A stretch of DNA of 64,000 nucleotides from Curtobacterium sp. MCBD17_032 (GTDB taxonomy: Bacteria; Actinomycetota; Actinomycetes; Actinomycetales; Microbacteriaceae), in assembly GCF_003234855.1 (NCBI RefSeq), contig NZ_QKTO01000001.1, positions 186,001-250,000 of the forward strand, given 5' to 3'. Position numbers and translations under genes: made by a program. The notes under the pieces are model-generated. The model worked only from the letters and a program-made list of their open reading frames with translations, searched no databases and had not been told where the DNA came from. This document shows, one piece after another, positions 48,067 through 58,522 of the stretch; within the stretch, counting starts at the first letter, position 1, and each line of letters opens with the position of its first letter.

Positions 48067-48477
48067 ATGAACCGAGACCAGCAGCACGTGTCCGACGCCG
48101 ACGACCACGTCGAGGTGGTCCGCAGCGAGGAGCGCCTCGCCGTCACCACCGAGCGTCACGCCACGGAACGCGTCCGACTCGAGCGGTACATCGTCACCGA
48201 GCAGCGCACCGTCACGGTCGACGTCAGCCGTGAGGAGATCCGCCTGACCCGCGAGCCGATCACCGGCGGGACCCGCCTGCCGGCCGGCACCGGCGACACC
48301 GTCCGCGAACCGATCGTGGTCGTCCTGCACGAGGAGCAGCTCGTCGTGACCAAGACCGTCGTGCCGGTCGAGCGCGTCACGCTCACCACGCACACCGTCA
48401 CGCACGACGAGGTCGTCGACGAGACCCTCCGGCACGAGGTCGTCGACGTCGACGAGGTGCGCGCGCCGATGGCCTGA
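48067..48477 (+). CDS. DUF2382 domain protein (YsnF/AvaK-like)
   Basis: The 136-residue hydrophilic protein is made of two related halves. The first is HVEVVRSEERLAVTTERHATERV...VTEQRTVTVDVSREEI, the second VVVLHEEQLVVTKTVVPVERV...TVTHDEVVDETLRHEVV. These are the tandem beta units of DUF2382, found in YsnF-like stress proteins and in PRC-barrel fusions. No enzymatic motif is present. ATG after CGGAGCAGAGC. Flanked by terminators on both sides, so it is transcribed alone. Confidence 0.85.
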   Translation: MNRDQQHVSDADDHVEVVRSEERLAVTTERHATERVRLERYIVTEQRTVTVDVSREEIRLTREPITGGTRLPAGTGDTVREPIVVVLHEEQLVVTKTVVPVERVTLTTHTVTHDEVVDETLRHEVVDVDEVRAPMA

Positions 48478-48496
48478 GCAGCCGACCCGAGTGCAC

Positions 48497-48535
48497 CGAG
48501 CCTCCTGGCCGTCATCGCGACGGACGGGAGGCTCG
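48497..48535 (+). terminator. Terminator of the DUF2382 gene
   Basis: The CGAGCCTCC/GGAGGCTCG outer stem with partial inner pairing lies 20 nt after the stop. Confidence 0.7.
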
Positions 48536-48619
48536 TCTCGTTGCCGGTGCCTCGCATGGGCCGACGATGCGACGTCCCTGCCGGACGCGCGCCGCCGACG
48601 ACGAGTTGCGATCCGCTCC

Positions 48620-48648
48620 TTTCCCTGCGGCTGGGGTCGCAGTACCAT
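48620..48648 (+). promoter_or_regulatory. Candidate promoter of the first GH91 unit
   Basis: TTTCCC and TACCAT are separated by 17 bp. The palindrome at 48659-48676 lies over the expected start region. Confidence 0.4.
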
Positions 48649-48658
48649 GTCGGCGAGA

Positions 48659-48676
48659 TGCCAAATCGGTTTGGCA
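48659..48676. promoter_or_regulatory. Candidate LacI-family operator upstream of the first GH91 unit
   Basis: TGCCAAA and TTTGGCA form perfect 7-bp inverted arms with a 4-nt spacer. It shares TGCCAAA with the palindrome in the GH32/ABC divergent promoter. The LacI-type gene in the locus is the obvious candidate ligand. Confidence 0.6.
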
Positions 48677-48697
48677 CACGACGAAGGGGTAGCAGCA

Positions 48698-48871
48698 ATG
48701 ATGGAACACCTCGTGATGTCTCGGCGCACGGTGCTGACGGGGATGGCGGTTCTCGCCGTGGCCGCACACAACGTGCCCGCTCTGCAGGCGACAGCGGGAC
48801 AGAGCCCCTCTGCCGGGCACCGCGGGAAGCTCGAGCCTCGCCGTCGTCGCGTCCCGGTGGGGCTGCTCTGA
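48698..48871 (+). CDS. Tat-type signal-peptide reading frame preceding GH91-A (out of frame)
   Basis: This frame encodes 57 residues with a twin-arginine start, MSRRTVLTGMAVLAVAAHNVPALQA, preceded by a short MMEHLV leader, and then a basic tail before a stop. The stop overlaps the ATG of the GH91-A gene (TGATG). The peptide looks like the export signal expected for a secreted inulin fructotransferase, but it is in a different frame from the enzyme. Either a single-base indel has split an exported enzyme, or a signal-like peptide is coupled to a cytoplasmic one, or this is a sequencing error. AAGGGG lies ~9 nt upstream of the first ATG. Confidence 0.5.
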   Translation: MMEHLVMSRRTVLTGMAVLAVAAHNVPALQATAGQSPSAGHRGKLEPRRRRVPVGLL

Positions 48872-50109
48872 TGCCCGCCGACAAGAAGAAGCCGGTGGCC
48901 ATCCCGCCGGAGCCGAACGTCTACGACGTCACCGACTGGAACCCGACCGGCGCTCTCGACCCGGTGCGGGACATCGGTGCCGTCATCAACAGCATCATCG
49001 GGGACATCAAGCGCCGCCAGACCAACCAGGCGGACAAGCCCGGCGCCGTGATCTACATCCCGCCGGGAACCTACTCGCTAAAGACGCGGGTCGTCGTCGA
49101 CATCAGCTACCTCTGCATCCGCGGTTCCGGGCACGGGTTCACTTCATCGAGCATCCGATACAACTCCGGCGACACGTCCACGTGGCACGAGATCAATCCC
49201 GGGGGCAGCCACATCAAGGTGGAAAACGCCGACGGCAAGTCCGAGGCGTTCCTCGTGCAGCGATCGGGAGACCCTCGGTTGAGCTCGATCGAGTTCGAGA
49301 ACTTCTGCCTCGACGGGGTGTCGTTCACCGGCAACCAGAACTCGTACCGCAACGGGAAGGTCGGGATCCGGTTCGCGTCCGCGACCGATGCAACCCGGGT
49401 GCGCGGGATGGGGATGGTGTACCTCGAGCACGGCCTGATCGTGCAGGACGCGGACGCGCTCGACGTCTCCGGGAACTTCATCGCCGAGTGCGGCAACTGC
49501 ATCGAGCTCACCGGGTCCGGCCAGGCGTCGAAGGTCACCGACAACCACCTCGGAGCGGGACCCATCGGGTTCTCGCTGTTCGCCGAGCAGCACAATGGTC
49601 TCCTCGTCACCGGCAACAACGTCTTCCCTCGCGGCATCGACTCGGTGCACCTCAAGAACTCGACGCGGTGCAACATCTCCGCCAACCGGCTGCACTCGTT
49701 CTACCCGGGCATGATCACGCTCGAGGGGAACTGCAAGGAGAACCTGATCGGCTCGAACATGTTCGAGCGGCAGGTGGAGACGTACGGGCCGTTCATCGGA
49801 GTCGGCAACGGCCGACCGGACGACTTCGGTGTCGTGCAGGTGAACGGTGACGGCAACACCATCACCGGCAATCACGTGACCGTGATCATCCCGCCAGAGC
49901 AGGTCGCGCCCGCCGGCACGACCGCAGCGGTGTTCCGCGTCGCGAGCGGCGATCAGAACCTCATCGGCGCCAATCACGTGATCAGTAACCTGACGCTGCA
50001 CACTGTGGTCCTCGACGCGGGCACGACCAACTCGCACGTCTTGGACAGCGGAACGGAGGCGCAGTTCGCCGCCGCCTCCACGAGCCACGGATTCCGACCC
50101 ACCCCGTAG
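48871..50109 (+). CDS. GH91 family enzyme A (inulin fructotransferase / DFA hydrolase-like)
   Basis: The 412-residue right-handed beta-helix protein is clearly homologous to inulin fructotransferases. It shows PGAVIYIPPGTYSLKTRVVV, GSGHGFTSSSIRY, YLEHGLIVQDADAL, GNFIAECGNCIEL, NNVFPRG, and NRLHSFYPGM. GH91 enzymes cut terminal difructose from inulin as DFA I or DFA III, or hydrolyse DFA III. The acidic residue present in its paralogue at HDNFIAEC is Gly201 here (VSGNFIAEC), while Glu212 of CIEL is kept. As written it starts without a signal peptide; a Tat-type leader lies upstream in another frame. Product specificity (DFA I versus III, or inactive) is open. Confidence 0.85.
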   Translation: MPADKKKPVAIPPEPNVYDVTDWNPTGALDPVRDIGAVINSIIGDIKRRQTNQADKPGAVIYIPPGTYSLKTRVVVDISYLCIRGSGHGFTSSSIRYNSGDTSTWHEINPGGSHIKVENADGKSEAFLVQRSGDPRLSSIEFENFCLDGVSFTGNQNSYRNGKVGIRFASATDATRVRGMGMVYLEHGLIVQDADALDVSGNFIAECGNCIELTGSGQASKVTDNHLGAGPIGFSLFAEQHNGLLVTGNNVFPRGIDSVHLKNSTRCNISANRLHSFYPGMITLEGNCKENLIGSNMFERQVETYGPFIGVGNGRPDDFGVVQVNGDGNTITGNHVTVIIPPEQVAPAGTTAAVFRVASGDQNLIGANHVISNLTLHTVVLDAGTTNSHVLDSGTEAQFAAASTSHGFRPTP

Positions 50110-50120
50110 GACCGTTCGGA

Positions 50121-50163
50121 GACAACGGGCCCGTCACGCATCGTGACGGGCCCGTTGTCTTTC
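50121..50163. terminator. Terminator between GH91-A and the fructokinase gene
   Basis: An 18-bp perfect stem (GACAACGGGCCCGTCACG) with a CAT loop and a TTT tail lies between the convergent genes. Confidence 0.9.
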
Positions 50164-50180
50164 CGTGCGGACGTGATCGG

Positions 50181-51104
50181 TCAGAGTGCGCCGGTCGTCG
50201 CTGCGGAGAGCTCGACCCGTGATGGAGGATTTGCGCCAGCACGGCTCACCGCGACCGACGCCGATGCTGCCGCCGCGCCCCCGACGCGGGTCAGCAACGT
50301 CGTGTCGACAGCGGACTGCTGTATCCGCTGGAGATCGCCTCCCTGCAGCAACGCGAAGAGCAGCCCGGACATGTAGGCGTCTCCTGCTCCGATCGTGTCG
50401 ACAACCGTCACCGCGGGCGCCGTGACCTGCACGCGAGTGTCCCGGCCGGCGACGATCGATCCGGCTGCACCACGGGTGATGGCGGCGAGGCGCACCCCAC
50501 CGTCGAGGAGACGGTCGAGGACGCCATCCGGGTCCACGTTCGGGTAGAGCCAGTCGGCGTCCTCATCGCTGAGCTTGACCACGTGCGTCCGCTCGACGAT
50601 GCGATCGAACTGCTGCAGCGCATCGGCCTGCTCGAGGAGCGCCGGCCGGATGTTCGGATCGAAGCTGCGCACCGTCGCCGCGGGAAGCTGACGGAACAGC
50701 TGCACTGCGGCGTGGCCACCGGGTTGCAAGAAGGCCCCCAACGATCCGGTGTGCGCAACAGCTGGCGCAACCCCGGCAGGGAGCACGGGCGATTCCCGGT
50801 CCCAGACGATGTCGAAGTCGTACCGAGCAGACCCGTCGGCTTGGAGCTCCGCACGCGCAACTGAGGTCGGCCCGTCGGCGCGGTCGACCGTCAGGCCGTC
50901 GTGAGCGAGGTGCTCGGCTATCAGACGCCCGTGTTCATCGTCACCGAACTGCGTGGCGAGGGTCACGGGCACGCCGAGGCGGGCGAGCCCCACTGCGACG
51001 TTCATGGGACTCCCGCCTGGTGTGAGGCGGGTCTCCGACCCGTCGGCGACGGCGTCGATGAGCGCTTCGCCGAAGACGATGACAGGGCGGTAGGAGGTGG
51101 TCAT
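50181..51104 (-). CDS. PfkB-family fructokinase
   Basis: The 307-residue sugar kinase has GEALIDAV at the start, the PfkB signature 1-like GGSPMNVAVGLARLG and C-terminal DTIGAGDAYMSGLL, whose Asp242 is the catalytic base. The pattern fits fructokinase (fructose to fructose 6-phosphate), the expected last step for a fructan locus. It is the last gene of the minus-strand unit, 39 nt after the LacI gene, and ends at a bidirectional terminator shared with GH91-A. Confidence 0.9.
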   Translation of the reverse strand: MTTSYRPVIVFGEALIDAVADGSETRLTPGGSPMNVAVGLARLGVPVTLATQFGDDEHGRLIAEHLAHDGLTVDRADGPTSVARAELQADGSARYDFDIVWDRESPVLPAGVAPAVAHTGSLGAFLQPGGHAAVQLFRQLPAATVRSFDPNIRPALLEQADALQQFDRIVERTHVVKLSDEDADWLYPNVDPDGVLDRLLDGGVRLAAITRGAAGSIVAGRDTRVQVTAPAVTVVDTIGAGDAYMSGLLFALLQGGDLQRIQQSAVDTTLLTRVGGAAAASASVAVSRAGANPPSRVELSAATTGAL

Positions 51105-51143
51105 GGCGATCCTTCCGCGGACGGTGATGTCACCGTCCGGACG

Positions 51144-52181
51144 TCACTGAGATGGTGCGGCGACGGACTCGCGACGCACGATCGGGCAGGTCAAGAACAC
51201 CGGTCCGACGGCTTGCTGCTGCTCGCCGGTCGGGAGGTCGTTCTGCAGCTCGACGAGGCGTTCGAGGGCCCACTCGCCCATCTCGTAGTGCGGCAGCGCC
51301 ACAGTGGTCAGCGCGGGGAAGAGCCCCTCTGCGATGAGCTCCTGGTTGTCGAAGCCCACCACTGAGAGGTCGGTGGGGATGCGGAGTTGCAGCTCTGCTG
51401 CAGCGCGGTAAGCGCCCATCGCCATGCGGTCGTTGTAGCAGAACAGGGCGGTCGGCCGGTCAGGACGCTGCAACAGCGCACGCGCAGCGTCGTAGCCGCC
51501 CGGGGTTTCGGACGGGGCCGCGCGGACGAGCGACTCGTCGACGTCGAGACCGGCTTCCAGCAGGCTCTCCGTGTACCCCGCCAAGCGTTCACGGGTGGCG
51601 GGAACGTCGTCCACGTTGTTGATGAAGCCGATGCGTCGGTGCCCGGCAGTGAGGAGCTCTCCCATCGCGGCGCGGGCACCGCTGCGTTCATCTGGGGCGA
51701 CCGCGGGGTGCTTCCTGGTGCTGTCGGTCGCGTCGATGACCACGGTCGGTATGACATCGAGTTCGGTCGGGGGGGTGATCTCGCGGTGGTACATCGTGGC
51801 GTAGAGGACACCATCGACCTGTTGCCGGATGAGGGCGGTGGCGTTCGCGGCGACGTCGTCCCGCTCGGTGTTGATGATGACCAGCGTCAGCCCGTGGCGT
51901 CGGGCCGCGTTCTGCGCGCCGAGGATGATCCGACCGGCGTGCGGGGTCGTGGCGATCTCTTCGCTGAGCAGGCCGATCATCTCAGAGCGCTGCATGCGCA
52001 GGCCCCGTGCCATCCGGTTCGGGCCGTAGCCCAGGCGGCGTGCAGCGTCCTTGACCCGCTCGCGGGTCTCGTCGCTGGCTCGGAGGAAGTCGACGTCGTT
52101 GAGGATGTGGGAGACGGTGGTGACGGACACCCCGGCCTCGGCTGCAACGTCCTTGATGCCGACGCGTCTCGGAGCCACCAT
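51144..52181 (-). CDS. LacI family transcriptional regulator
   Basis: The 345-residue protein has the LacI helix-turn-helix with hinge (VGIKDVAAEAGVSVTTVSHILND, then RLGYGPNRMARGLR). A periplasmic-binding-like effector domain follows (MIGLLSEE, GVLYATMY, GHRRIGFINN, CYNDRMAMGAY, DLSVVGFDN). It would bind fructan-derived sugars such as DFA or fructose and release operators in the locus. AAAGGAT lies before the ATG chosen, which begins just before the HTH; a longer frame upstream lacks a ribosome-binding site. It lies between the ABC genes and the kinase. Confidence 0.92.
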   Translation of the reverse strand: MVAPRRVGIKDVAAEAGVSVTTVSHILNDVDFLRASDETRERVKDAARRLGYGPNRMARGLRMQRSEMIGLLSEEIATTPHAGRIILGAQNAARRHGLTLVIINTERDDVAANATALIRQQVDGVLYATMYHREITPPTELDVIPTVVIDATDSTRKHPAVAPDERSGARAAMGELLTAGHRRIGFINNVDDVPATRERLAGYTESLLEAGLDVDESLVRAAPSETPGGYDAARALLQRPDRPTALFCYNDRMAMGAYRAAAELQLRIPTDLSVVGFDNQELIAEGLFPALTTVALPHYEMGEWALERLVELQNDLPTGEQQQAVGPVFLTCPIVRRESVAAPSQ

Positions 52182-52266
52182 CGATCCTTTCGTTCCGTGG
52201 GAGGTCGGATCGCGTCCGGCCCTGCGTTGGTCGGCGGCATCCGTCTTGGTCGAGCACACCATCGCT

Positions 52267-52317
52267 GATGCTCGCGACCGTGGGAAGGTCCCGCTCCCGG
52301 TGTGAAACGCGAGCATC
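52267..52317 (-). terminator. Inverted repeat downstream of the ABC permease genes
   Basis: GATGCTCGCG and its exact complement are 31 nt apart with inner ACCG/CGGT pairing, between the last permease gene and lacI. It may attenuate transcription between the transporter genes and the lacI-kinase pair. Confidence 0.5.
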
Positions 52318-52362
52318 TTCACCCTAAGTCCACCGGAAGCGGGATCTCCGAGTGGGCGATGC

Positions 52363-53202
52363 TCACCCCTTGACTGCGCCCAGTGTGAGACCAGCGACGA
52401 TGTGCCGCTGCAGAACGAACGTCAGCAGGATGACGGGTACCGAGTACACGATGCCGAGGGCGGTCATCGTTCCCCAGTCGAGACCGAACTGCGTCTGGAA
52501 GTCGGCGATCATGAGTGGAGTCGTCTGCGCACGCACCGAGGTGAGCAGCAGGGCGAAGATGTAGTCGTTCCACGATGCCAGGAACGCGAAGATCGCGGTG
52601 ACCGCGAGGCCGCCGGCGGTCACCGGCAGGATCACGCGGACCAACGCGCCGATCCTGGAAGCGCCGTCAACACGGGCAGCTTCCTCGAGTTCTTCTGGAA
52701 CAGCCTGGAAGAAGCTCGACAGCAGCCAGATCGACAGTGGCAGGGAGATCGTGGTGTGGGCGATCGCGAGGGCGAATGACGTGTCCTGGATGCCCACGCT
52801 ACGGAACATCGTGATCAAAGGGGCCCCGACGACGATCGCCGGAACCATGCGGGTCACGAGGGCGACGAGGATGAACACCTGCCCGAAGCGGGTCCGGTAC
52901 CGGGTGACTGCGTACGCGGCTGGCACTGCCAGCACGAGGGACATGACGGTGCTGATCGCCGCGGTGACGATGCTGTTGATGAAGGACGCCGGAACTCCGC
53001 TGGTGCCGAGTGCCGAGCTGTAGTTCTCGAGCGTCCAGTTCCGCGGCCAGATGGTCGGCGGCACCGCGATCGTCTCGACCGGCACCTTCAGTGAGGTGAG
53101 CACCATGTAGAGGAAGGGGAACGCGTAGAGCACGACGAGCAGGATCAGGGCGATCCAGAGGATGGTCTTCGTGCCGATGCGCTGTGTTTCGAGGCCGTTC
53201 AC
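52363..53202 (-). CDS. Carbohydrate ABC transporter permease (MalG-type)
   Basis: The 279-residue protein has six predicted membrane helices, starting with ILWIALILLVVLYAFPFLYM. The EAA loop EELEEAARVDGASRIGALVRVILP contacts the ATPase subunit. CUT1 family. The start overlaps the stop of the other permease gene (ATGA). No ATP-binding subunit is in the locus, so a shared MsiK-like ATPase elsewhere is expected. Substrate by context is inulin-derived oligosaccharide or difructose anhydride. Confidence 0.93.
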   Translation of the reverse strand: MNGLETQRIGTKTILWIALILLVVLYAFPFLYMVLTSLKVPVETIAVPPTIWPRNWTLENYSSALGTSGVPASFINSIVTAAISTVMSLVLAVPAAYAVTRYRTRFGQVFILVALVTRMVPAIVVGAPLITMFRSVGIQDTSFALAIAHTTISLPLSIWLLSSFFQAVPEELEEAARVDGASRIGALVRVILPVTAGGLAVTAIFAFLASWNDYIFALLLTSVRAQTTPLMIADFQTQFGLDWGTMTALGIVYSVPVILLTFVLQRHIVAGLTLGAVKG

Positions 53203-54083
53203 TGGTCACTCCCGGGTCGCCAGATCTTGAAGATCGCGAAGATGGCCACGGCCAGCATCGCGATGAGGTAGATGGTGCCCATCGCGCTTGCCAAGCCGGG
53301 GTCGCCGTAGCGGATCTGTGTCTGGTACACCAGCAGTGACATCGTCTCGGTGGCGTTCTGTGGGCCACCGTTGGTCTGCAGCACGATCACGTCGAATGCG
53401 CGAGCGGCGTCCACACCACGGACGATGAGCGCGACGGCGATCACGGGACGCAGCAGCGGGATCACGATGCGGAACAGCAGTGTGGGGTATCGGGCTCCGT
53501 CGAGGCGGGCCGCCTCGAGGACGTCGCCGGGTATGTTCTGCAGGCCGGCGAACAGCACGAGCGTGATGAACGACGTCGTCAGCCAGACGTCCGGGATGGA
53601 GACCGACACCAGAGCGATCTTCGGGTCACTCAGCCACTGGATCGCGTTGGGGGACGGCAGCAGGTGGGCGCTGTAGAGCAGCTGCCCGACGATGCCGAAG
53701 TTGTCGCTGAGCAGGAACTTCCAGAGCAGGCCCGCGACGATCGGCGCGATCATCAGGGGGTAGAGGAAGATCGTGCGGAAGACGCGTGAGCGGTCACCGA
53801 TCGTGGCGAAGAGCAGTGCGACGAGCAGGCCGATGGCGAACTCGAAGAACACCACGATCGCCGTGTACACCGCGGTGCGCCAGGCGGAGTTGCCGAAGTC
53901 CGGGTCGGTGAACGCGGTGATGTAGTTGCTGAAACCGACGAACCGGCGAGTGCCTGCGAGCTGGTTGATGTCGAAGAAACTGTTGGTCACGAACTGGATG
54001 AGCGGCCAGCCGATGAAGATGAGCAGGAACAGCGCCGCCGGCAGGATCATGAGCACGGCGAAGCGTCGGTCGGTTATGCGCAC
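53199..54083 (-). CDS. Carbohydrate ABC transporter permease (MalF-type)
   Basis: The 294-residue inner-membrane protein has six helices (FAVLMILPAALFLLIFIGW first). The EAA loop DVLEAARLDGARYPTLLFRIVIPLL is characteristic. It pairs with the MalG-type gene downstream. The GTG start is chosen because the longer frame would run into the binding-protein gene; the Shine-Dalgarno is weak (GAAAG). The gap from the binding-protein stop is 50 nt. Confidence 0.93.
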   Translation of the reverse strand: MRITDRRFAVLMILPAALFLLIFIGWPLIQFVTNSFFDINQLAGTRRFVGFSNYITAFTDPDFGNSAWRTAVYTAIVVFFEFAIGLLVALLFATIGDRSRVFRTIFLYPLMIAPIVAGLLWKFLLSDNFGIVGQLLYSAHLLPSPNAIQWLSDPKIALVSVSIPDVWLTTSFITLVLFAGLQNIPGDVLEAARLDGARYPTLLFRIVIPLLRPVIAVALIVRGVDAARAFDVIVLQTNGGPQNATETMSLLVYQTQIRYGDPGLASAMGTIYLIAMLAVAIFAIFKIWRPGSDQ

Positions 54084-54133
54084 GAGCGACTTTCGGTTCG
54101 GGGGAGGTGGCGGCCCCGTAGGGCCACCACGCT

Positions 54134-55435
54134 CTACTTGAGGATGTCTTCGACCTTGGACTTGGCCTGGTCGAGGAGCTGCTGGTTGTCCGCACCCGGT
54201 CGGACGGCTTGCTGCAGCATCGGCACGAGCGCGTTGTCGACGATCTGCTGCCACTTGGGGTTCGACGGACGCGGGATGGTGCCCTCCGCCTGCAGGGTCT
54301 CGACCATCGGCGTGAACGCTTCGTAGCCGGGCTTGTCCTGGTACTTCTCGAACGCGGACACCCGCGCGGCGAGCCCGAGGTCCGTGGTCGCGCTCAGGTC
54401 GTTGTGCTCGTACGCGAACTTGATGAACTCCTCGGCTGCGTCCTGGTTCGGCGATGCCTTCGGGACGCTGAGGTAGTAGGGGCCGGGGACGCCAGCAACA
54501 CCGGCGGGGCCAGCGATCATCGGGGCGACGCCGACCTTGCCGGAGACCTTCGAGTCCTCGGGGATCTGCCGGTAGGCGTGGCCCCAGAACAGCATGAGCG
54601 CGGTCTTGCCCTGGTAGAAGAGGTTCTGCGCTGCCGCCCAGTCGGTCTGCGCCGCACCCGGTGCCGACGACTTCAGCATGCTCGTGTAGAAGTCCAATGC
54701 CTTCAAGCTGGCAGCGTCACCGAGGGTGACGTTCCCCTTGTCGTCGACGACCATGTCCTTCTCGCCGGCCTGCGAGAGGGCAGCGAGGTATTCGGTCTCG
54801 ACAGCGCCCTTCGTGGCAGTGCCGTACATGCCGTCCTTCGTGAAGAACTCGGCCTCGTCCTGGTACTGCTCCCACGTCGTCGGAGGCGTGAGGTCGTAGC
54901 CGTACTTCTCCTTGAACGCGGTCTTGTTCGCCGGGTCGTCGAGGAGGTCCTTGCGGTAGTAGAGGATCTCTGTGTTGGTCCACGCGGGCATACCGACGTA
55001 GTCGCCGCCGATCTTGCCCTCCTGCAACTCCGCCGGGAAGAGGTCCTTCTCCACGTCCTCGGTGAAGAGCGAGTTCAGCGGCGTCAGCCCTTCCTTGAAG
55101 GTGGGCAGCCAGATCGCATCGAGCGCGGCGACGTCGAAGGACACCGACCCGGAGTTGAGCTCGCTGTTGACGCGGTTGTAGAGGCCGTCGTAGGGCAGCT
55201 CGACGAACTGGACCTTAGTCCCGGTCTCCTTCTTGTAGCGATCGGCGATCGGCTGGAGCTCGCCGTGCCCCCCGGCTTCGACGAGGACGGTCAAGCTCTT
55301 CGCCGACCCGCCACCGTCGCCGCCACCAGCACCGCACGCGCTGAGGACCAGCGCCGATGCCACGGCCACGGCAGTACCGGCGAGGATGCGACCTCTGTTG
55401 CCGGCACGCGTGCCGGACTTCTTACGAAGCATCAT
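54134..55435 (-). CDS. ABC transporter sugar-binding lipoprotein
   Basis: The 433-residue protein has a lipoprotein signal peptide with lipobox LSAC near residue 33 and a Gly/Asp-rich spacer. A cluster 1 solute-binding fold follows (LTVLVEAGGHGELQPIADRYKKETG, GMPAWTNTEILYYRKDLL). It would capture the imported fructan fragment outside the membrane. AAGGAG 8 nt before the first of two ATGs supports this start. It is the first gene of the minus-strand unit; its promoter region is shared with the divergent GH32 gene. Confidence 0.93.
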   Translation of the reverse strand: MMLRKKSGTRAGNRGRILAGTAVAVASALVLSACGAGGGDGGGSAKSLTVLVEAGGHGELQPIADRYKKETGTKVQFVELPYDGLYNRVNSELNSGSVSFDVAALDAIWLPTFKEGLTPLNSLFTEDVEKDLFPAELQEGKIGGDYVGMPAWTNTEILYYRKDLLDDPANKTAFKEKYGYDLTPPTTWEQYQDEAEFFTKDGMYGTATKGAVETEYLAALSQAGEKDMVVDDKGNVTLGDAASLKALDFYTSMLKSSAPGAAQTDWAAAQNLFYQGKTALMLFWGHAYRQIPEDSKVSGKVGVAPMIAGPAGVAGVPGPYYLSVPKASPNQDAAEEFIKFAYEHNDLSATTDLGLAARVSAFEKYQDKPGYEAFTPMVETLQAEGTIPRPSNPKWQQIVDNALVPMLQQAVRPGADNQQLLDQAKSKVEDILK

Positions 55436-55496
55436 CACTTCGTCTCCTTCGTCTGCAGCAGCAGCGCTGCGATCGGGTACGGTGTCGATGACAAAG

Positions 55497-55511
55497 CGTT
55501 TTGCCAAAACG
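55497..55511. promoter_or_regulatory. Candidate LacI-family operator in the divergent GH32/ABC promoter
   Basis: The perfect palindrome CGTTTTG-C-CAAAACG overlaps the candidate -35 of the GH32 promoter and lies 61 nt upstream of the binding-protein start. A single repressor site could control both directions. Confidence 0.7.
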
Positions 55512-55530
55512 ACTTGGCCCAAGATATACA
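55501..55530 (+). promoter_or_regulatory. Candidate promoter of the GH32-GH91 unit
   Basis: TTGCCA and TATACA are separated by 18 bp, in a locally AT-rich stretch. The -35 lies within the operator palindrome. Confidence 0.6.
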
Positions 55531-55585
55531 TCTACGCAGAGGCCGTCAAGCGAACGGCCCATCGCTCCGAGGGGACCCCTTGCGC

Positions 55586-56815
55586 ATGATCGACGACGAT
55601 CGCCCCAGCATCCACCTGACCGCTCGATCCGGCTGGATCAACGACCCCCTGTCGTTGACCTGGCACGACGGCAGCTACCACGTCTTCTTCCAGTACGTGC
55701 CGGAACAGACCAGCTGGGCCCCGTCCTGCCACTGGGGGCACGCGACGTCCACCGACCTGCGGACGTGGACGGAACAGCCGGTGGCGTTGGTGCCCGGCGA
55801 GGGCGACGACGGGATCTGGTCAGGCTCCCTCGTCATCGACGGCGATCGTGCGACGATCTTCTACACGTCGATCCAGACGCCGGACTTCAGCATCGGCCAG
55901 ATCCGCACCGCTACGCCCACCGCTTCGGACTGGACAACGTGGACCAAGGGGGACGTCGTCGCCGTTCCCCCCGAGGACATCGATGTGCGGGTCTACCGCG
56001 ACCCGTTCGTCTTCCGTGATCGTGACCGATGGCGGATGCTCGTCGGAGCGAACATCGACGGCACCACCGCCGCTGCACTGTCGTACTCTTCGCTGGATCT
56101 CCAGAGTTGGCAGTACGACGGCGTCGCCGCGCAGCGGAACACCTCGCTGACCGAACCGGTCTGGACCGGCAAGCTCTGGGAGTGCCCACAGGTCTTCACC
56201 ATCGATGGTGTCGACGTGCTGATCACCTCCGTCTGGAACGACGACGAGCTCCACTACGTCGCCTACGGACTCGGGGAGTGGCGGGACGGCGTCTTCGAGG
56301 TCGAGCGATGGGGTCGGCTGACGTGGGGGGACAGCTACTACGCACCTTCTTTCTACCGCGACTCCGACGGTCGGCCCGGGCTGGTCTTCTGGCTCCGCGA
56401 GATCCGCGATCACGCCGGGGACACCTGGACCGGTGCCATGAGCGTGCCCCACGTGCTCACGCTGGACGGCGATGAGCTCGTCGCGCGGCCGCACCCTGAC
56501 GTCGTCAGCGGCGATGGCGTCAACACGCACACCGCGTTCGATCGCATCGACCTCACAAGCGATGGGCGCGCTGACATCATCAACTGGGACCCCGATCTCG
56601 GACAGCTGGTCGTCACCAGAGATGAGGAACCGATCCTCACCATCAACCGCACCGGGGACGACCTGCACATCGCGGCAGCGACCGGTGCAGGTGGAACGGT
56701 GCCGGCAGGTGATGGGGTCGTGGAGATCCTCCTCGACGGACCGGTCCTCGAGGTCAGCACCAGAGCCGGACTGTTCGCCGCACCCTTGCGTGCCCCGGTC
56801 GCTGTCACGCGGTAG
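55586..56815 (+). CDS. GH32 beta-fructofuranosidase / exo-inulinase-type hydrolase
   Basis: The 409-residue five-bladed propeller enzyme has the nucleophile in WINDP (Asp20), the transition-state Asp in YRDPF (138-140) and the acid/base Glu in WECPQ (Glu199). The C-terminal beta-sandwich is short. There is no signal peptide, so it acts in the cytoplasm on imported sugars, releasing fructose from inulobiose, fructooligosaccharides or opened difructose anhydrides. A TTG at 55580 is better spaced from GAGGGG than the ATG used here; either start gives the same domain. The GH91-B gene follows 76 nt later, probably in one transcript. Confidence 0.92.
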   Translation: MIDDDRPSIHLTARSGWINDPLSLTWHDGSYHVFFQYVPEQTSWAPSCHWGHATSTDLRTWTEQPVALVPGEGDDGIWSGSLVIDGDRATIFYTSIQTPDFSIGQIRTATPTASDWTTWTKGDVVAVPPEDIDVRVYRDPFVFRDRDRWRMLVGANIDGTTAAALSYSSLDLQSWQYDGVAAQRNTSLTEPVWTGKLWECPQVFTIDGVDVLITSVWNDDELHYVAYGLGEWRDGVFEVERWGRLTWGDSYYAPSFYRDSDGRPGLVFWLREIRDHAGDTWTGAMSVPHVLTLDGDELVARPHPDVVSGDGVNTHTAFDRIDLTSDGRADIINWDPDLGQLVVTRDEEPILTINRTGDDLHIAAATGAGGTVPAGDGVVEILLDGPVLEVSTRAGLFAAPLRAPVAVTR

Positions 56816-56891
56816 CGGCCCTCGAACTGATCCTGCTGTTCCGCTGCGCGCAGTGGCCACAGCAACGACGAGACGAAAGGATCCAACAACC

Positions 56892-58229
56892 ATGCCGAAC
56901 AGCAACGACTACGACGTGACCACCTGGCCGGTCGGCGATCCGGCCGAGGACATCGGCGAGGTGCTCAACAGCATCATCGCCGACGTCAAGAGCCGACAGA
57001 GTGGCACCGACGGCGATGGCGGCAAGCCTGGCGCTGTCGTCTACCTCCCGCCGGGGGACTACCGCCTCCGCACACAGGTCCTCATCGACATCAGCTTCTT
57101 GAAGATCCGCGGCGCCGGGCACGGATTCACCTCCTCCAGCATCCGGTTCAACGTCCCCGAGGAAGAGTGGCCAGACCTGCACGAGCTCTGGCCCGGCGGA
57201 AGCCGCATCCTCGTCGACATGCCACTCCCGGAGGATGCGGACGAGCGGGCCGGCGCCGCGTTCCTCGTGGAGCGCGAGGGCAGTCCTCGGATCAGCTCCG
57301 TCGAGTTCGAGGACTTCTGCATCGACGGCATGCACTTCATCGCAGACGGCTCCGACCTGCTCCCGGAGAACACCTACGTCAACGGCAAGACCGGGGTCCA
57401 CGTCGCCAGCGCCAACGACTCCTTCCGCTTCAACGGGATGGGACTGGTCTACCTCGAACACGGCCTCACGATCCACAACGCCGACGCCCTCTCCATCCAC
57501 GACAACTTCATCGCCGAGTGCGGCAACTGCATCGAGCTCCGCGGATGGGGACAAGCATCGAAGGTCACCGACAACCTCATCGGTGCCGGCTTCAAGGGCC
57601 ACTCCATCTACGCCGAACACCACGGCGGGCTCCTGATCACGGCCAACAACGTGTTCCCCCGCGGGGCGAGCAGCGTCCACCTCAGCAGCGTCACTCGGTC
57701 GAGCATCACCAACAACCGGCTGCATTCGTTCTACCCGGGGATGGTCGTCCTCGCCGAGAACAGCTCTGAGAACCTCATCGCCGCGAACCACCTCCTCCGC
57801 GACCATGAGCCGTGGACGCCGTTCCTCGACATCGACAACGGCCTCGACGACCAGTACGGCCTGCTCCGCGTCGATGGCAGCGACAACACCATCGTCAGCA
57901 ACCACTTCTCGGAAGTCGTCGACTCGCAGCGCGTGACGCCCCCCGGCGAAGCGCCCGTCATCATCCGGCTCGTACGTGGCTCCGGCAACTCCGTCGCGAC
58001 GAATCACGTCGTGGCCAAGGACGCTCACTCGCGCTCGAATGCGTCCGCGTTCTCCGGTCAGGTAGACGCGCTCCTGGCCACCGGAATCAGTCAACTCGCG
58101 GTGCTGGCAGTGATGATCGACCCCACCGCAGTGCACAACGTGGTCCTCGACTCTGGACGGGAGTCAGAGGTCCACATCGATGCAACAGCCAACGTGCTCC
58201 GGCCGACGCCCGATCTCGCCGGGCGGTGA
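56892..58229 (+). CDS. GH91 family enzyme B (inulin fructotransferase / difructose-anhydride hydrolase)
   Basis: The 445-residue beta-helix protein follows the Bacillus sp. snu-7 inulin fructotransferase pattern nearly motif for motif (YDVTTWPVGDPAEDIGEV, WPDLHELWPGGSRILVD, NADALSIHDNFIAECGNCIELRGWGQ, DHEPWTPFLDIDNGLDD). Asp204 and Glu215 stand 11 residues apart and correspond, as I recall, to the essential Asp233/Glu244 of that enzyme. No signal peptide: starting MPNSNDYDVT, it should be cytoplasmic. That favours a difructose-anhydride III hydrolase role on imported DFA over extracellular inulin depolymerisation, though both activities occur in GH91. AAAGGA lies ~9 nt before the ATG. Confidence 0.9.
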   Translation: MPNSNDYDVTTWPVGDPAEDIGEVLNSIIADVKSRQSGTDGDGGKPGAVVYLPPGDYRLRTQVLIDISFLKIRGAGHGFTSSSIRFNVPEEEWPDLHELWPGGSRILVDMPLPEDADERAGAAFLVEREGSPRISSVEFEDFCIDGMHFIADGSDLLPENTYVNGKTGVHVASANDSFRFNGMGLVYLEHGLTIHNADALSIHDNFIAECGNCIELRGWGQASKVTDNLIGAGFKGHSIYAEHHGGLLITANNVFPRGASSVHLSSVTRSSITNNRLHSFYPGMVVLAENSSENLIAANHLLRDHEPWTPFLDIDNGLDDQYGLLRVDGSDNTIVSNHFSEVVDSQRVTPPGEAPVIIRLVRGSGNSVATNHVVAKDAHSRSNASAFSGQVDALLATGISQLAVLAVMIDPTAVHNVVLDSGRESEVHIDATANVLRPTPDLAGR

Positions 58230-58522
58230 ACGACGGCGGGAGGGCAGTCGTCGTGGCGTACCGGAGGCCGACGTCGACTGTCTCGCGTGCGCTCTCACCC
58301 GGTGGCTCCGCGTCGTCGGCGACACCTACCTCGGGCTCCGCGGTGAGGATCGGGCACTTCTCGAAGGACCACGGCAGACCTGTGCGTCCACGACTGCACG
58401 GTGACGCCGCTCGTCGCGCTGGTCGTCGGGGAACGCGGGCGTCGTGTCCGAGATGACTTCCGTCATCGGCGCGCGTCGCGACCCTGCGAGCTCCCGCAGT
58501 CGTTGACTCCGTGTGGCGGAGG
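58230..58522. other. Intergenic region between convergent genes, no gene seen
   Basis: These 293 bases separate GH91-B from the convergent deoR gene. The only structure I can point to is a 6-bp GATGAC-TTCC-GTCATC hairpin near 58451-58466, a weak terminator at best. No coding frame looks genuine. Confidence 0.4.

Follow-up and report, generated by a model that had tools for sequence, protein, structure and literature searches.

The window analysed here, a stretch of 64,000 nucleotides from Curtobacterium sp. MCBD17_032, carries a fructan utilization locus with two genes of family GH91 (GH91-A and GH91-B), the first of which is preceded by a separate short open reading frame (ORF) with a twin-arginine translocation (Tat)-type signal. 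This leader ORF is conserved in relatives, is associated with A-type GH91 genes and shows a purifying pattern of substitution, with nonsynonymous rates below synonymous rates (dN<dS). We infer that it probably encodes a stand-alone Tat microprotein whose C-terminal tail binds folded GH91-A, so that the enzyme is exported in trans. The reading frame of GH91-A itself encodes no signal peptide. The leader (MMEHLVMSRRTVLTGMAVLAVAAHNVPALQATAGQSPSAGHRGKLEPRRRRVPVGLL) lies in a different frame, and its TGA stop codon overlaps the GH91-A start codon (TGATG). It shows twin arginines followed by a hydrophobic stretch, as is characteristic of Tat-type signals, and TatC is encoded in the window genome. 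The arrangement is also that of a hitchhiker pair, in which a carrier gene adjoins the gene for a cargo that has no signal of its own.

To place this observation among relatives, GH91 genes were called A-type when their tblastn score was higher with GH91-A than with GH91-B, and GH91 matches shorter than 900 nt were dropped before counting (among them L043, L151, L152 and L156). The 38 distinct A-type genes (the 38 entries of the control set minus one twin, plus L206) comprise 35 actinobacterial and 3 proteobacterial genes; 29 have a separate leader, 3 have a fused in-frame Tat-type signal and 6 have neither. Where at least 250 nt of upstream sequence were available, one ORF combining a Tat-like signal with the C-terminal motif was found at 26 of 34 A-type genes, as compared to 0 of 118 B-type genes in the same test and 0 of 283 genes for PfkB, permeases, binding protein, LacI and GH32 together. 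Signal-like ORFs alone did occur upstream of 7 of the 118 B-type genes and 14 of the 283 other locus genes, none of them with the motif. The two features are linked in both directions: ORFs chosen by signal alone yielded the motif in 26/26 A-type regions (two of which hold a second signal-like ORF without it), and ORFs chosen by the motif alone had the twin arginines (RR) in 26/26. Three further leaders, contributed by a twin locus or by loci with short flanks, bring the number of distinct leaders to 29, and these span several bacterial families. A count of 3400 random positions in A-type loci, 121 of which hold signal plus motif, is uninformative, the loci being short and the real leaders unmasked. 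The B-type gene L021 matched a looser pattern and fails the stricter test of signal plus motif.

Because the end [VIL]G[LVMI][LI] and RR belonged to the selection criteria for these 29 leaders, the presence of the end motif in 29/29 is no evidence in itself; an AxA-like site is likewise present in 29/29, by a loose test. Leader lengths range from 52 to 77 amino acids (aa) with starts assigned by rule, the start of one (L147) falling outside the locus. Stop codons are TGA in 17 leaders, TAA in 7 and TAG in 5, frame offsets of 0, 1 and 2 between leader and enzyme occur at 5, 10 and 14 loci, and the distance from leader to aligned enzyme core runs from -16 to +176 nt. Mean identity between leaders is 0.55 in the final six residues versus 0.18 in the preceding six. 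All 16 pairs compared gave dN<dS for the leader, these pairs being hand-chosen and several having dS near saturation. A profile built from 24 of the 29 leaders and run on 20 genomes gave at least 15 full-length matches at E<1e-9, and among the matches listed all 15 have GH91-A as a neighbour; 14 of them are profile members that match by construction, and one (in G1328) is a non-member. Leaders outside the profile were matched more weakly (2.7e-5 in G687, 4.5e-4 in G1172), and the G608 leader, also outside it, was not among the matches listed. The absence of leaders elsewhere holds for strong matches; weaker full-length ones may lie beyond the matches listed. A thirtieth leader, outside the 29, ends in YRSIIGVL about 190 nt upstream of a cut-short GH91-A (L151, genome G1332).

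Some relatives carry the signal on the enzyme. Three (L034, L136 and L206) have an in-frame Tat-type signal on GH91 and no VGLL-like tail, and in G533 and G1390 the match of the fused enzyme to the leader profile is confined to the signal part. Since a fused signal stands in the leader's stead in these three, the leader appears tied to export of the enzyme, and since the fused enzymes carry a Tat-type signal without the tail, their sequences suggest Tat as the exit route of this enzyme type, with the tail dispensable once the signal is attached. In one Subtercola metagenome genome (L051, 4833-7239), two A-type GH91 genes stand in tandem after one leader.

In the mechanism that we propose, the leader and GH91-A genes would be expressed together, the leader product being a 57-aa peptide that consists of a twin-arginine signal, a variable stretch and a free C-terminus of the form [VIL]-G-[LVM]-[LI]-COOH. 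The tail would dock onto folded GH91-A in the cytoplasm, for which the NxDG loop at residues 119-122 is a candidate site, the Tat machinery, a mover of folded proteins, would take the leader/GH91-A pair out, and signal cleavage would leave a short peptide. Outside the cell GH91-A would convert inulin to difructose anhydride (DFA), which the importer would take up; GH91-B would open the ring to give inulobiose, GH32 would yield fructose from it, and PfkB would phosphorylate the fructose. On balance we favour, with some reserve, the wider view of the leader as a minimal detachable Tat tag, some 60 aa long, in which the four to eight C-terminal residues with their free carboxylate would recognise one enzyme family. 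Such a tag would be ancestral in actinobacterial inulin fructotransferases, with a fused Tat signal taking its place in one lineage of Arthrobacter type and with loss in the cytoplasmic hydrolases and the proteobacterial copies. The candidate docking site comes from an alignment in which 97 columns are conserved in leader-bearing enzymes and 4 of these are lost in both fused and B-type enzymes, three of them within residues 119-122. The NxDG loop is present in 25 of the 29 leader-bearing enzymes, with HxDG in one more, and in 0/5 fused rows, 0/119 B-type rows, 0/3 proteobacterial A-type rows and 0/1 for L042. It is also kept in two A-type genes without a leader of their own, the second copy of L051 and L160.

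Several observations weigh against this interpretation. On the window leader the Pfam model TAT_signal (PF10518) is weak (E 0.013, 15.9 bits, cut-off 22.7) and no NCBIfam model matches, and 0 of 4 leaders tested pass the cut-off of any curated model. The NxDG link was found post hoc, the leaderless enzymes amount to few clades, and the loop is shortened in three leader-bearing enzymes (L040, L041 and L025). An AlphaFold model of a tethered leader-enzyme monomer from L048 yielded a well-modelled GH91 core (pLDDT of 90 or more at 274 of 468 residues) and no docking, with residues 1-69, a span that covers the leader entirely and extends past it, at pLDDT below 50, in a run whose alignment held no leader relatives and which modelled no trimer; moreover, a GH91-A trimer would be a large Tat cargo. 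Finally, six A-type genes lack both the leader and the fused signal, namely the second copy in L051, the broken gene L160, the divergent L042 of a draft genome, and the proteobacterial L099, L162 and L163. In these last three, two of which (L162 and L163) are on Agrobacterium plasmids, the A-type gene adjoins a DFA-IIIase-type gene with no signal or leader seen, importer genes also lie beside it in L162 and L163, and the A-type enzyme is probably cytoplasmic. The GH91-A genes of L156 and L160 (genome G1591) look broken or cut short.

Four other explanations for the leader were considered. It could be a Tat-exported peptide that acts alone outside the cell or at the membrane, as a folding helper, an anchor or a signal, with GH91-A leaving otherwise or by lysis. 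The placement of conservation in a short C-terminal motif, which is also seen in some secreted signalling peptides, would fit such a role, as would the lack of docking by AlphaFold. Strong full-length leaders, however, stand beside A-type GH91 alone among the matches listed, and the fused Tat-type signal without tail in three relatives also speaks against a peptide acting on its own, so that we consider this unlikely.

A role as upstream regulatory ORF, whose translation would set GH91-A expression while its product was irrelevant, might be read from the TGATG overlap in the window, which suggests translational coupling. We regard it as very improbable in view of the dN<dS pattern in 16/16 pairs, the linkage of signal and end motif at the amino-acid level while third bases vary, and a leader-enzyme spacing that differs by almost 200 nt. 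For the VGLL motif, a buried ribosome site was rejected as an origin, since both its spacing from the enzyme and its third bases are variable. The occurrence of all three frame offsets, and of each of the three stop codons at the corresponding position, leaves very little room for a single precursor formed by frameshifting or stop read-through, even though the leader directly precedes GH91-A, whose open frame can often be followed back through it; in L052 a stop codon interrupts the enzyme frame in the stretch that separates the leader from GH91-A. Programmed frameshift, read-through and sequencing error were all rejected on frames and stops. That a sequencing error or a recent mutation split a normal fused signal in the window genome, for which an out-of-frame signal would be the usual appearance, can be practically dismissed because the same split is found at 29 distinct loci from several families, with a conserved motif before the stop.

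Carriage in trans by Tat is itself established. MelC2 hitchhikes on MelC1 (PMC2758597), and PaoB and PaoC, 135 kDa jointly, on PaoA (PMC4273604). The MelC1/MelC2 pair of Streptomyces resembles the present one in being a two-gene operon in which a small Tat-signal protein is encoded upstream of a signal-less secreted enzyme, with a stop/start overlap in S. lavendulae, but MelC1 also loads copper onto the tyrosinase (PMC2758597). The MelC1 model has 127 positions, whereas the leader would leave a tail of very roughly 6-30 residues after its predicted cleavage. Similarity of leader to MelC1 is confined to the signal; the model (NF047833) does not match the window leader, and one of four leaders reaches 14.6 bits (E 0.027) against a cut-off of 120. 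In HybO/HybC and PaoABC of E. coli, too, signal-less subunits cross Tat bound to a signal-bearing partner (PMC4273604), but their carriers are complete enzyme subunits (21 kDa for PaoA), and the leader hardly exceeds a signal. TIGR02811, a formate dehydrogenase region TAT target of 66 positions, is also a small Tat-signal protein and gave E 0.012 with one of four leaders, but the match is limited to leader residues 4-41 and is under the cut-off. The fused-signal inulin fructotransferases (those described from Arthrobacter H65-7 and C11-1, and the 2INU/9J4I clade) are likewise GH91 enzymes without a lid, and differ in having the signal as part of the enzyme, no VGLL-like tail and no NxDG loop. 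A search of the open-licence literature returned no recognised description of the leader. As far as our searches reach, the leader is a putative variant of Tat hitchhiker export that is undescribed and much smaller.

The proposal bears on a puzzle in the literature. Haraguchi (PMC5448860) describes the A. globiformis S14-3 enzyme that forms DFA I as extracellular even though its gene has no signal-peptide structure, while two DFA-III enzymes bear signals of 32 and 40 aa. L129, in the 8HSN clade, has a 1182-base ORF, the size reported for the S14-3 gene, and has a leader; L153, a near-twin of the solved 8HSN, has one too. A separate leader would, if our proposal is true, explain how a DFA-I enzyme without signal peptide comes to be extracellular, and the Tat carrier would be far smaller than MelC1 or PaoA. 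More generally, where a short overlapping ORF is overlooked, signal-less enzymes may be misjudged as cytoplasmic, and the leader might be used as a transferable tag with which industrial enzymes are exported in folded form.

The two GH91 enzymes of the window share 48% identity over 443 aligned positions. PF18835, the inulin-fructotransferase beta-helix, is found in GH91-A at 6e-18, above its cut-off, and falls just short of it in GH91-B (29.7 vs 30 bits), where NosD and Beta_helix are above theirs. Among solved structures GH91-A best matches the inulin fructotransferase 2INU (455 bits, residues 14-412) and 9J4I, and GH91-B the DFA-IIIases 5ZL5 (729 bits) and 5ZKS (728 bits). Each contains an Asp followed eleven residues later by a Glu (D195/E206 in GH91-A, D198/E209 in GH91-B), which we take to be the catalytic pair. 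In a tree of 54 rows the GH91-A group and the hydrolases form one clade, outside both the 2INU/9J4I clade and the 8HSN clade. The title of the 9J4I structure calls it DFA-III-forming, and we presume that 2INU makes DFA III and 8HSN makes DFA I. By these sequence comparisons GH91-A is of the inulin-fructotransferase type, with either DFA I or DFA III as its predicted product, the tree placing it outside both of the clades just named. GH91-B is, on the same grounds, a DFA-IIIase-type hydrolase predicted to convert DFA III to inulobiose. In the alignment it has an insert near the C-terminal end that is absent from GH91-A, and in DFA-IIIase a lid over the active centre has been described (PMC11538131). 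E218 has been named as a catalytic-type residue together with one further residue (PMC4640833). At the residue corresponding to the Cys that was mutated in 5ZL5 (C387A), GH91-B has Ala. The sequence-only reading had one of the two enzymes as apparently cytoplasmic, which agrees with the lack of a signal in GH91-B but does not set it apart, GH91-A likewise having none in its own frame.

Positions of the leader ORF, the sugar utilization genes and the operator-like sites in the 64,000-nucleotide window
Feature	Position	Strand	Assignment and remarks
Leader ORF, 57 aa	48698..48871	+	Tat-type signal (SRRTVL), then a short tail with RRRVPVGLL before the stop; putative carrier microprotein for Tat export
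GH91-A, 412 aa	48871..50109	+	Inulin-fructotransferase type; without the lid insert of GH91-B; D195/E206
PfkB-family sugar kinase	50181..51104	-	PfkB Pfam 3e-39
LacI-family regulator	51144..52181	-	Pfam LacI and Peripla_BP
ABC importer permease (G type)	52363..53202	-	Pfam BPD_transp_1
ABC importer permease (F type)	53199..54083	-	Pfam BPD_transp_1
Sugar-binding protein, lipoprotein-like signal (LVLSAC)	54134..55435	-	Pfam SBP_bac_1
GH32 beta-fructosidase-type hydrolase	55586..56815	+	Glyco_hydro_32N 9e-60; no signal peptide seen
GH91-B, 445 aa	56892..58229	+	DFA-IIIase type, lid insert, D198/E209; no signal peptide seen, no leader
LacI-type operator-like palindrome GCCAAATCGGTTTGGC	48660..48675	.	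Upstream of leader ORF; exact GCCAANNCGNNTTGGC match
Second operator-like palindrome GCCAAAACGACTTGGC	55503..55518	.	Between binding protein and GH32; exact GCCAANNCGNNTTGGC match

The layout claimed from sequence alone, in which two GH91 genes flank a LacI regulator, a PfkB kinase, a sugar importer and GH32 at 48.7-58.2 kb, was confirmed in full by Pfam and by solved-structure sequences; the out-of-frame 57-aa leader ORF had gone unnoticed in that reading. As read, GH91-A starts at ATG 48871, LacI at ATG 52181, GH32 at ATG 55586, GH91-B at ATG 56892, one permease at GTG 54083 and the binding protein at 55435. The PfkB kinase is nearest to the fructokinase model, far under its cut-off (122 vs 450 bits), and no ATPase gene was seen among the locus genes. 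GC content is 64.5-68.4% in the five 2-kb bins of the locus versus 69-73% in adjoining bins, and low-GC bins also occur elsewhere in the window (for example, 65.5% at 1-2000). Consensus promoters and terminators gave no result at 48450-50300, and an Rfam scan of 48400-58400 gave no matches.

The route that had been proposed for these genes, from inulin through cyclic DFA, import, GH91-B and GH32 to the kinase, fits the families, the GH91-B lid, the operators and the layout in relatives. It is not new, because the same course has been proposed for Arthrobacter and Blautia, with extracellular conversion of inulin to DFA III, uptake, cleavage to inulobiose by DFA-IIIase and release of fructose by beta-fructofuranosidase (PMC4640833, PMC11538131). 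The sugar pathway of the locus is a further case of something already described. Blautia DFA-III clusters similarly combine DFA-IIIase, GH32, an ABC importer and, in some, a sugar kinase, but the portion of that report drawn on here names no forming enzyme and no leader (PMC11538131).

Exact matches to GCCAANNCGNNTTGGC occur twice in the 64 kb, one preceding the leader and the other located between the genes for the binding protein and GH32. The pattern was derived from these same two sites, and therefore the window by itself proves little for an operator; with two mismatches allowed there are 3 matches versus 1.3 in shuffles. Among the 29 leader loci (171 kb), 5 exact matches were found, all at most 700 nt upstream of a leader, and a looser pattern places a site at 14 of the 27 leaders that have 700 nt upstream. 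An exact match is also present upstream of both fused-signal genes checked. Operator-like palindromes are common to both gene groups, and the operator case is stronger in relatives than in the window alone.

Within the genus, 2 of 66 genomes, the window genome included, gave GH91 matches, as did 22 of 398 genomes of the family and 15 of 396 of the order, weak partial matches being counted in the last two. The layout recurs in relatives: matches to the binding protein, both permeases, LacI and GH32 lie beside GH91 in 11 of 11 stretches, all chosen for bearing GH91, and of these same stretches 10 have leader plus GH91-A and 10 have GH91-B. A same-genus genome, G043, contains a DFA-IIIase-type locus (L201) without leader and without GH91-A, in which the binding protein and permeases are 88-97% identical to those of the window; this locus perhaps serves a DFA scavenger that has no forming enzyme.

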